Source: an uncultured Gammaproteobacteria bacterium (GTDB lineage: Bacteria; Pseudomonadota; Gammaproteobacteria; PS1; Pseudothioglobaceae). Taken from it: DNA of 64,000 nt. This document shows positions 50,648 to 54,323 of the stretch, piece by piece. The stretch lies in assembly GCA_913020715.1 (NCBI GenBank), contig CAJVZH010000001.1:62001-126000 (forward strand), read 5' to 3'. The stretch's first letter is position 1, and each line of letters starts with the position of its first letter. The notes beneath the pieces are model-generated. The model had not been told where the DNA came from. It ran no database searches and saw nothing but the letters and a program-made list of their open reading frames with translations. A program made the position numbers and the translations under genes.

Positions 50648-50672
50648 AAAAGGCGCTATAAAAGCGCCTTTT
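50648..50672. terminator. Bidirectional terminator between NTF2-like gene and serA
   Basis: AAAAGGCGCT (50648-50657), loop ATAAA, AGCGCCTTTT (50663-50672): ten paired bases, with T runs on both strands. It ends the thiolase transcript and the convergent serine operon. Confidence 0.9.
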
Positions 50673-50694: not shown

Positions 50695-51633
50695 TTAATT
50701 CACAACGTGGATCTCAACGTTGTTTTGCAATACGTCAGCCACTTGGTTGGCCGCCATTTCAGCAACTACAATAGAAGCCTCAGCAGTTGAAGCGCCAAGG
50801 TGTGGGGTCAAAATTGCTTTAGGGTTGTTGAATAAAACGTTTTCTTTGGCCGGCTCTGTTGAAAACACATCGATAGCAGCGCCCGCAATTAGGCCTTCGT
50901 TAAGCGCATCATTAAGATCGCTCTCGTCAACCATGTTGCCACGAGCGGCATTGATGATGATTGCTGAAGACTTCATTTTTGCTAAGTGTTCTTTGTTAAC
51001 AAGTGGCTTGCCGTCAGCTGCCGCTTTGCCATGAAAACTGATAATATCACTCTGTGCCAGTAGTTCGTCAAAGCTCACGTTAGTTACGTGTGGGAACTCT
51101 GCTTGACGAGATTCTAAAGACTTAGAGCAAACAAGCACGTTAACGTCAAAACCACTAACCAGGTGACTAAGTCTTGCGCCAATATTACCAAAACCAACGA
51201 TGCCTAGCGTTTTCTTTGAAAGCTCAACGCCTTTGATGGCTTTTTTCTGCCACTCGCCTTTGTGTGTTGTTTCGTCTGCAAAAGGAATTTTTCTGAGTGC
51301 AGCCATGATAAGTGCAAAAGCGTGCTCAGCAGTGGCATTGGTGTTTCCACCCGGTGTGTTCATAACAACCACGCCATTTTCTCTTGCCCTCGCGCAGTCG
51401 ATATTATCAACGCCCGCACCAGCTCTAGCAATCGCTTTAAGCTTAGTCGCCGCAGCTAAGATGTCTGCTGTGACCGTTGTTGCTGATCTAACCAATAGCC
51501 CGTCGTACTCAGGGATGATGTTAATCAGCTCCTGCTCAGACAGCCCTGTGATTACGTCTACTTCAATACCTTTGTCGTTGAAGATTTGATCCGCAACGTT
51601 GCTCATTGCGTCTGAAATTAATACTTTATACAT
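50695..51633 (-). CDS. serA: D-3-phosphoglycerate dehydrogenase, short form without ACT domain
   Basis: First committed step of serine synthesis. The 312-residue protein has a substrate domain with LLVRSATTVTADIL, the NAD-binding LGIVGFGNIGARLS, INAARGNMVDESDLNDAL, and the catalytic histidine in LTPHLGASTAEA. E. coli SerA (410) carries a C-terminal ACT domain for serine feedback; this protein ends right after the catalytic domain, so feedback would differ. Its ATG shares one base with the serC stop. Confidence 0.9.
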   Translation of the reverse strand: MYKVLISDAMSNVADQIFNDKGIEVDVITGLSEQELINIIPEYDGLLVRSATTVTADILAAATKLKAIARAGAGVDNIDCARARENGVVVMNTPGGNTNATAEHAFALIMAALRKIPFADETTHKGEWQKKAIKGVELSKKTLGIVGFGNIGARLSHLVSGFDVNVLVCSKSLESRQAEFPHVTNVSFDELLAQSDIISFHGKAAADGKPLVNKEHLAKMKSSAIIINAARGNMVDESDLNDALNEGLIAGAAIDVFSTEPAKENVLFNNPKAILTPHLGASTAEASIVVAEMAANQVADVLQNNVEIHVVN

Positions 51634-52781
51634 TACTTTACCTCTTGATAAGCCCATTCAATCCATGGCAATACTGCCCTCATGTCGTCGTTTTGCACTG
51701 TTGGTCCGCCCCATAGTCTTAAGCTTGCTGGCGCTTTAGGGTAGCCACCGATATCGAAAGCCACGCCTTCGTCGTCGAGCAGTGTTACGATTTTTTTCAC
51801 AAGCGCTCTTTGATCGTCTTCATTCATATTAGTGAACGACTCATCTTTAATTGCTACTGTGATACTTGTTGAGGATCTTGCGCTTGCGTCATCACATAAA
51901 AACTTAAATGAGTCGCTGCCATCAATCCAGTTAGAGACAATATTAAGGTTTTCATCTGAGTGCTTAATTAACGCTTCAGCACCGCCCACAGATTCTACCC
52001 AGTTTAGTGAGTCGATAACGTCTTCAACACAAATCATTGATGGTGTGTTGATTGTCGCGCCTGCAAAAATACCTTTAGAGATTTTTTGCTTGCTAGCCAT
52101 TCTGTAAATTTTAGGCATTGGCCATGTAGGTGTGTGCGTTTCAAGTCTTTCTAGTGCACGAGGCGACAATGCGATCATGCCGTGAGCGCCTTCACCGCCC
52201 AAAACTTTTTGCCAAGACCAAGTAACAACATCAAGCTTGCTAAAATCCATGTCCATAGCAAACACCGCAGAAGTGGCGTCACAAATTGTTAGGCCAGCTC
52301 TGTCGTCTGGAATCCAGTCTGCGTTAGGAACACGAACACCGGCTGTTGTGCCGTTCCACGTGAAAATTACGTCGTTATCAAAATTGGCTTTGCTTAAATC
52401 AGGGAGTTCGCCGTACTCAGCTACATGAGAGTTGACATTTTCAAGTTTTAGCTCGTTCAATACATCGTTGACCCAGTCTCTGCCAAAGTTTTCCCACGCA
52501 AGAACGTCCACACCTCGTGCACCTAAAAGAGACCATAGGGCCGCTTCTAATGCGCCAGTGTTGGATCCAGCCATAATAGCTAGAGTGTAGTCTTCTGGCA
52601 AGCCAAGAATGCTGCTTGATTTGACAATAACATCATTTAGTTTTGCTTTACAGTGTTTCGCTCTGTGCGATCTGCCTGTGTCAGCGTTTTGTAGGGCACT
52701 GATATCCCAGCCTGGTCTCTTAGAGCAAGGGCCGCTAGAGAAGTTCGGGTTTGACGGTTTAATTGTTGGCTTAGTTATCAT
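51633..52781 (-). CDS. serC: Phosphoserine aminotransferase, archaeal/alphaproteobacterial type
   Basis: PLP enzyme making 3-phosphoserine. The 382-residue protein begins [14 protein letters not shown], with [12 protein letters not shown] and [20 protein letters not shown], where the lysine binds PLP. These segments fit the second SerC subfamily (as in Methanosarcina and alphaproteobacteria) rather than the E. coli form. It lies five bases after the DUF1015 gene and overlaps serA by one base. Confidence 0.9.
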
Positions 52782-52786
52782 AATTG

Positions 52787-54019
52787 TTAGTCCTCGAAGT
52801 CGTATGCTACCAAGCCATCTAATGGTTTTGGATCAAACCATGTCGATTTTGGTGGCATTGTTAAGTTTTTGTCAGCAAAGTTTATTACGTGTTCCATTGG
52901 TGTTGGGAAAAAAGAAAAACCAACTTCGACTTCGCCTGAGTCGACCTTTTTTTCGATTGCTTCTAGGCCGTGGAAACCGGCAATAAAACCAATCCTTGTG
53001 TCGCGTCTTGGATCGCCAATGTCTAGAATTGGATCCAGCAGATAGTGATGCAATATATTAATATCTAAGTTCATTAGTCCTGAAAGCGCCGCTTCGGGCT
53101 TGTCTTTTAGGGTAACTGAATACCATGTGTTGTCCAAGTACATGCCGAACGACCCTAATGCAGTTGGCTTGAAAGGCGCGTTTTGCTTTTCAACAATAAA
53201 GTGTTCTTCAATTTTCTCAATAAAGTCACTGGCAGAATAACCAAATAAGTCTTTTACCAGCCTGTTGTAGTCGAGTATGCGCGCTTGGCTTTCTGGAAAC
53301 AGAGCCATCATGAAAAAATTATACGGCTCTTCACCCGTGTGGTCATGATTTTGGTGTTTTCTGTATTCTGCGAATCGTGATAGTGCAGCAATTCGGTGAT
53401 GTCCATCGGCAACGTATGTGCGCTTAATTGCGTTAAATAATTCTCTGATTTGTACTACAGTCTCTTCATTGTCTATGACCCAGAGCTCGTGCTGGCAGCC
53501 GTCTATAGCGTCAAAAGAATAAGTTGGTTTAACAGTGATTCGCTCTTCTAATAAGCTGGCCAATTTAGCTTCGTCGGGGTAGACCACGTAAATAGGGCCG
53601 ATTTGAGCGTTTAGGTTTTTAATTTGTTCAAATCTTTTTTGAGAATTCTCAACATAAATTTTCTCATGTCCACGAATGTTTAGGTCGTCATAGTCGGATA
53701 TTTTTGCCGTAGCAATCATTCCAACTTGAGAGTGATCTTCTGTCGATATTTTGTAAATGTAAAAAGAGTTGGCGCTGTCTTTTGCAATTGCCGAATTACT
53801 TTTCATCGCTGCAAATTTCTCTCTTGCCTCGGCCTCCAGCTCGCCGTCTGTTTTTGAACAGACGTCTTCGGGGCTAAAAATATTCAGATAACTCCAGGGA
53901 TTTTTGCCCTTGTAGGCCTTAATCATTTCTTCAGACAGGTGGTCTGTACTAGGAAGAGAAACAGACGAAGCTTCTGCGCCTTCAGGTCTTAATCCTTTGA
54001 ATGGGTTGGCTAAATACAT
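52787..54019 (-). CDS. DUF1015 family protein of the serine operon
   Basis: A 410-residue protein beginning [10 protein letters not shown] and containing [20 protein letters not shown]. The ADGHHR motif recalls the ParB/sulfiredoxin fold used by the free-serine kinases SerK and SbnI (family knowledge). It is first in an operon with serC and serA, spaced five bases from serC, behind its own regulated promoter. Inference: it works on serine or phosphoserine, as kinase, phosphatase or sensor. No phosphoserine phosphatase gene is seen in the window. The biochemical role of DUF1015 proteins is not established to my knowledge. Confidence 0.85.
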
Positions 54020-54091: not shown

Positions 54092-54117
54092 ATTATAAAC
54101 ACTTTGACTACTCAAAG
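54092..54117 (-). promoter_or_regulatory. Promoter and dyad of the DUF1015-serC-serA operon
   Basis: On the minus strand a perfect TATAAT (54092-54097) is preceded, within the spacer towards the -35, by CTTTGA GTAG TCAAAG (54102-54117), a 6+6 inverted repeat. A protein bound there would block the promoter. The leader to the DUF1015 ATG is about 65 bases. A good -35 is not seen, so activation may be needed. Confidence 0.45.
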
Positions 54118-54120
54118 AGC

Positions 54121-54160
54121 AGTTTTTTCCTAATAAGAACAGTTTTTTCCTAATAAGAAC
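54121..54160. repeat. 20-bp tandem direct repeat upstream of the serine operon promoter
   Basis: AGTTTTTTCCTAATAAGAAC occurs twice in a row, followed by a third partial copy (AGTTC). It starts three bases upstream of the dyad at 54102-54117. Phased 20-bp repeats (about two helical turns) upstream of a promoter suggest activator sites. The interval 54161-54323 shows nothing else recognisable. Confidence 0.9.
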
Positions 54161-54323
54161 AGTTCGTTAACACTCAATAAACTCCAAGAAATTTTATAGA
54201 GTTAATGGTTGAGCTAAACGAAAAATATTAATCAAAAGGATAAATTATTTCGTTTTTTCATTATCCGTTGGCGAGCTGTTGAAATCCTTTACGAAAAACC
54301 AAGGGTTGGCGAGAGAGCAATAA

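Follow-up and report, generated by a model that had tools for sequence, protein, structure and literature searches.

The operon and its host genome

Three genes lie in the order DUF1015-serC-serA on the minus strand of the window, the whole stretch of 64 000 nucleotides analysed here. The DUF1015 gene (52787-54019) encodes a protein of 410 residues that matches PF06245 with 267 bits in a Pfam search (cut-off 25.8), covering profile positions 2-323 of 325. A gap of 5 bp separates it from serC (51633-52781), which encodes a phosphoserine aminotransferase of the serC_2 type (TIGR01365, 549 bits; NF002841, 607 bits; both above the cut-off). The third gene, serA (50695-51633), encodes a short 3-phosphoglycerate dehydrogenase (PF02826/PF00389) of 312 residues counted from Met9 of its open reading frame, a start that overlaps the serC stop codon by 1 bp (TAATG); an alternative longer ATG start would give an overlap of 25 bp. 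The gap and the 1 bp overlap are those described in the original prediction for this locus. SerA scores 342 bits with TIGR01327, compared with 130 bits for the runner-up match in the genome, and is clearly the top one of four matches to the phosphoglycerate dehydrogenase model at E ≤ 1e-20 in the host. An intrinsic terminator with a 10-pair stem and a T tail follows serA (50648-50672, minus strand), and the neighbours of DUF1015 in the window are serC, serA and a GrpE-like gene.

Upstream of the operon, two exact copies of an 18 bp repeat, TGTTCTTATTAGGAAAAA, lie 20 bp apart on the minus strand (54124-54141 and 54144-54161, together spanning 54124-54161), followed by a TATAAT-like -10 box (54092-54097, minus strand). 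The repeat is present in every operon copy of the window's subgroup and absent elsewhere in the window; both elements are kept in the window, in genome G030 and in the two operons of genome G015, which suggests a putative activator-type site. The regulated promoter that had been proposed for the operon is thus upheld in part: the repeats and the -10-like box are conserved, but no -35 hexamer was seen upstream, and eight of 100 shuffled sequences also contained two matches to the repeat at three or fewer mismatches. A promoter scan found no canonical sigma-70 promoter in this region and did not list the TATAAT-like box. Riboswitch control is not indicated, as Rfam gave no match close to the operon, either in the window or in eight relatives. 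Two SAR11 genomes have the SAR11_0636 sRNA (RF01827) on the downstream side of their serine operon (L081:13113-13203 and L091:13944-14034).

Named relatives of the operon identify the host as a Candidatus Thioglobus species of the SUP05 type within the Gammaproteobacteria. This abundant marine sulfur bacterium is represented by an assembly of 1.55 Mb at 94.7% completeness. The window contains no SerB, as originally noted, and a SerB model search of the whole host genome gave a single weak match (25 bits, cut-off 144); the same model found matches in all 14 control genomes. This weakly matching HAD protein was rejected as SerB, being a histidinol-phosphatase (NF052360, 298 bits, cut-off 280), and the outcome of looking for serB elsewhere in the genome thus favours the earlier reading. 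HAD-IB matches akin to this histidinol-phosphatase occur across the order in genomes both with and without SerB. Proteins known or predicted to replace SerB without being its orthologues include iPSP/SerB2, of the histidine-phosphatase family, and other displaced SerBs (PMC9026213); DUF1015 is none of the displaced SerBs listed there. An iPSP-type replacement was ruled out in the host: the histidine-phosphatase family PF00300 has no members in it or in three related Thioglobus genomes, and the PF00300 model found matches in 13 of the 14 control genomes.

Predicted fold of the DUF1015 protein

The DUF1015 protein has no match to the SerB model TIGR00338 or to any other NCBIfam model. Its ADGHHR motif (residues 204-209; 53393-53410, minus strand) does not vary among 53 close relatives or among 21 diverse ones, and the segment GHHRIAA at residues 206-212 conforms to the Box II pattern of ParB, GxxRxxA, with GHHR invariant and Ala212 nearly so. 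The available text of a survey of the ParB-CTPase fold describes GxxR as the P-motif of ParB-fold proteins and includes a DUF1015 fusion (printed 'DU1015') among its ParB-fold candidates; in that text no function is given for DUF1015 and the family is not named among the nucleotide binders (PMC12704722). Neither a ParB helix-turn-helix domain nor a ParB dimerization domain was detected in the protein by Pfam, and there is no neighbouring parA gene. The second DUF1015 protein of G015 (L043:2093-3226, contig 34) has 377 residues and an altered, shortened C-terminus that lacks the MPPKSTWF block.

An AlphaFold2 model built from 53 aligned homologues (pLDDT 86.5, pTM 0.85) was compared with the PDB using Foldseek. 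Nine matches were obtained at a probability of 1.00 (E values 1e-7 to 2e-5), all of them to SerK, SbnI or the SerK homologue 1vk1 from Pyrococcus, and two of the nine structures have phosphoserine and AMP bound; no further PDB match exceeds a probability of 0.06. The top structural match is SerK, the ADP-dependent free-serine kinase of Thermococcus (5x0b/5x0e/5x0j; about 300 aligned columns), with roughly 10% identity and no profile-level similarity, and with 241 residues compared with 410 in the DUF1015 protein. The free-serine kinase SbnI of Staphylococcus (5uje, 6nr6) is matched with a TM-score of at most 0.60 on the target. The TM-score on the query is only 0.33-0.38, indicating that the relationship to SerK and SbnI is distant, and neither phmmer nor a profile hmmsearch of PDB chains detected sequence homology to either protein. 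The kinship originally guessed from the motif is nevertheless borne out in the model, whose predicted fold matches SerK and SbnI and essentially no others, and DUF1015 is therefore predicted to be a distant relative of these ParB-fold free-serine kinases. Asp26, His118-Glu119, Asp205, Arg209 and a C-terminal MPPK-TWF block, all of which are invariant, are candidate active-site residues; that Asp26 might be the counterpart of the catalytic Glu30 of SerK is a guess.

The known roles of the two kinases differ from the genomic setting of DUF1015. By phosphorylating serine, SerK supports the synthesis of cysteine and the assimilation of serine, and SbnI is reported to serve staphyloferrin B synthesis; DUF1015 instead occupies the place of SerB beside serC and serA. 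The main rival to a phosphoserine phosphatase is nonetheless a SerK-like free-serine kinase, with SerC and SerA running backwards from serine to 3-phosphoglycerate or with phosphoserine feeding cysteine or tryptophan synthesis. The sole structural relatives of the model are serine kinases, and the serK gene of Desulfurococcales is found next to serA and an aminotransferase gene, for which a backward route has been proposed (PMC5120207). In the operon described here, however, phosphoserine is already made by SerC and SerA, and together with the genome comparisons below this makes a kinase an unlikely, although serious, alternative.

Distribution of DUF1015, SerB and the serine cassettes

In a sample of 397 Pseudomonadota genomes with completeness of at least 90%, DUF1015 exceeded the cut-off in 42. 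SerB, called at E ≤ 1e-15, was present in eight of these 42 genomes compared with 322 of the 355 that lack DUF1015 (Fisher p = 4e-23). When the contrast was collapsed by family in the worst case, with each unlisted SerB-less genome scored against the hypothesis, p was 1e-6. Among 50 SAR11 and marine alphaproteobacterial genomes that carry DUF1015, not one has a SerB above the cut-off. Many of the 50 are incomplete assemblies from single cells, but absence in 50 of 50 far exceeds the effect of incompleteness. The control genome of Thermotoga maritima likewise carries DUF1015 and has no SerB at 1e-15. DUF1015 and SerB thus tend to exclude each other, while some lineages carry both.

Seven of the eight Pseudomonadota genomes with both proteins belong to one family, and four genomes of this family were examined, in three of which the two genes are near each other. 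This family, which is possibly zetaproteobacterial, is the main exception to the mutual exclusion; its SerB is genuine but has an unusual N-terminal region, and the gene adjoins DUF1015 or lies within a few kilobases of it (L179:7874-10207, L180:8924-11799 and L178:7102-12108). SerB and DUF1015 also occur together in genomes G006, G018 and G336, as well as in two of the controls, Bacteroides ihuae and Methanosarcina acetivorans.

Such coexistence would suit a pathway sensor or regulator, a serine- or nucleotide-binding ParB-like switch, with a promiscuous HAD protein carrying out the phosphatase step; the histidinol-phosphatase HAD of the host could do so, and ParB-fold proteins are often switches according to the fold survey (PMC12704722). 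The HAD-IB proteins do not track the loss of SerB, however, since they occur across the order regardless of it; no DNA-binding domain was seen in the DUF1015 protein by Pfam, and a regulator would leave the mutual exclusion with SerB across many families unexplained. A purely regulatory role accordingly appears improbable. Under the kinase reading, loss of SerB would spare the cell a futile cycle of kinase and phosphatase and would also yield an anticorrelation. This reading would, on the other hand, leave genomes with SerA, SerC and DUF1015 without a route from 3-phosphoglycerate to serine, and a clear SerA is kept in 28 of the 34 Pseudomonadota genomes that carry DUF1015 and lack SerB.

The linkage seen in the window recurs outside the genus. 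DUF1015, serC and serA are on one strand in 74 of 80 named loci, the remainder being convergent (two), cut by the contig end (two) or without these neighbours (two). The order is serC-serA-DUF1015 in Listeria, Enterococcus and Bacteroides, where serC and serA are of other types; the same order is indicated by similarity in Prevotella, with a wider gap between serC and serA. SerC and SerA of Listeria share 54% and 49% identity with the Thioglobus pair that accompanies serB, so that these two enzymes partner SerB in one organism and DUF1015 in another. No SerB above the cut-off was found in the 2.9 Mb L. monocytogenes record NZ_CP030101.1 (L198), which looks like a whole chromosome although PLSDB lists it among plasmids. 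The serC gene of this organism has been reported to be important for intracellular growth (PMC3091722). In the more distant Pseudomonadota examined, DUF1015 lies mostly away from serA and serC, and the anticorrelation with SerB there does not therefore arise from linkage. In two SAR11 genomes DUF1015 has neither serC nor serA next to it; its neighbour is a PEP carboxylase gene (NF000584) in L065 and a long gene of similar kind in L067.

The gene before DUF1015 is of the TrpB2 type (NF009057/TIGR01415) in 62 of 80 SAR11 and marine alphaproteobacterial loci (L062:6614-7975, L093:6575-7939 and 60 more of L059-L138), giving the order trpB2-DUF1015-serC-serA. TrpB2 proteins have been reported to use O-phosphoserine, and the arrangement suggests that phosphoserine may be a branch point to tryptophan in these loci. 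The adjoining TrpB2 gene is also compatible with the kinase reading. It further hints at a phosphoserine node at which DUF1015 might act elsewhere in phosphoserine metabolism, transferring phosphate to another metabolite or repairing or removing a by-product. Two papers cite a precedent for the former in Pseudomonas ThrH, which catalyses phosphoserine:homoserine phosphotransfer (PMC5764234, PMC2700814). The neighbourhood suggests no acceptor, and only serC and serA are conserved beside DUF1015 in Listeria, Enterococcus and Bacteroides; a role of this kind is the least probable of those considered.

Within Thioglobus, two alternative cassettes are found. Some species have a divergent serB and serC_1-serA (SerA of 390 residues), and others have DUF1015-serC_2-serA (SerA of 312 residues). 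The DUF1015 operon occurs without SerB and without the serA of the native cluster in G000, G010, G015, G021, G023 and G030, and G015, which is 99% complete, has two DUF1015 operons and neither the native serA nor serB. Both cassettes are present in G006 and G018, as expected if replacement is in progress. In G000 and G015 serC_1 is retained in a separate conserved cluster that resembles by eye the usual pheA/hisC/tyrA/aroA group. SerC has an established role in vitamin B6 synthesis in gammaproteobacteria, and the retained serC_1 may serve this pathway. Replacement of an entire biosynthetic cassette by the DUF1015 operon is a further argument against a kinase. In trees, the DUF1015 and SerC proteins of the window group with SAR11, and the corresponding pair of the other Thioglobus operon groups with other marine alphaproteobacteria, whereas the SerA proteins of the two operons group together (window 50695-54019 versus L046-L049). 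These placements indicate that DUF1015 and serC moved as a unit and that the operon is a mosaic. The contrast between DUF1015 and SerB is not significant inside the genus alone (p about 0.1), because genomes are few and many are incomplete.

Proposed function, mechanism and significance

Three independent lines support a role in phosphoserine or serine metabolism: the predicted fold, the exclusion of SerB and the recurring linkage to serC and serA. The original suggestion that DUF1015 handles phosphoserine or serine and possibly replaces SerB is supported by the modelled fold, the missing SerB and the anticorrelation, and a SerK-like protein in an operon with SerA and SerC most likely acts on one of these two compounds. 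DUF1015 and SerB (a HAD phosphoserine phosphatase, TIGR00338) share the proposed step and the place beside serC-serA; they are unrelated in fold and sequence and largely mutually exclusive. The preferred reading, to which we assign a probability of about 0.6, is that DUF1015-serC-serA is a complete operon for the synthesis of serine from 3-phosphoglycerate in which DUF1015, with its SerK-like fold, replaces SerB.

Sequence analysis and structure prediction give the operon, the absence of SerB, the fold, the anticorrelation and the linkage across phyla; from these we infer the substrate of DUF1015, the direction of the reaction and the catalytic residues. SerA would make phosphohydroxypyruvate, which SerC would aminate to O-phosphoserine, and DUF1015 would then remove the phosphate in a SerK-like pocket to give serine. 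The DGHHR (Box II) loop would hold the phosphate, which would pass to water or to an acceptor. Plain reversal of a kinase is thermodynamically poor, making hydrolysis or transfer to another acceptor the more likely course. Removal of phosphate by DUF1015 would complete the biosynthesis and explain why SerB was lost, why the cassettes were swapped and why SerA was kept. We know of no phosphatase with the ParB fold, and both SerK and SbnI are kinases, which counts against a phosphatase. The absent profile-level link to SerK also counts against a phosphatase of this fold, as the coexistence of SerB and DUF1015 in some lineages does against replacement.

The missing phosphoserine phosphatase is a recorded open problem. 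SerB is missing from 450 human gut genomes that have both SerA and SerC (PMC9026213), several GapMind gaps fall at this step (PMC7311316), two candidates failed in Desulfovibrio (PMC5764234), and for Geobacter the enzyme has been noted as an 'unidentified phosphoserine phosphatase' (PMC2700814). Besides its inclusion in the ParB-fold survey, DUF1015 is mentioned only twice and incidentally in the literature searched, and a function may have been published in subscription journals. DUF1015 is the best candidate for a long-missing last step of serine synthesis, and what would be new is most likely a SerK-fold protein standing in for SerB. At somewhat better than even odds, the family as a whole is a widespread, unrecognized phosphoserine phosphatase (or phosphotransferase) on the ParB-CTPase/SerK fold and the missing SerB of SAR11, SUP05/Thioglobus, Listeria and others. 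Should DUF1015 prove to be the enzyme, a kinase fold would have been turned to dephosphorylation, a chemistry new to the ParB fold, and serine/glycine auxotrophy would have been mis-predicted for SAR11, SUP05 members and other carriers.
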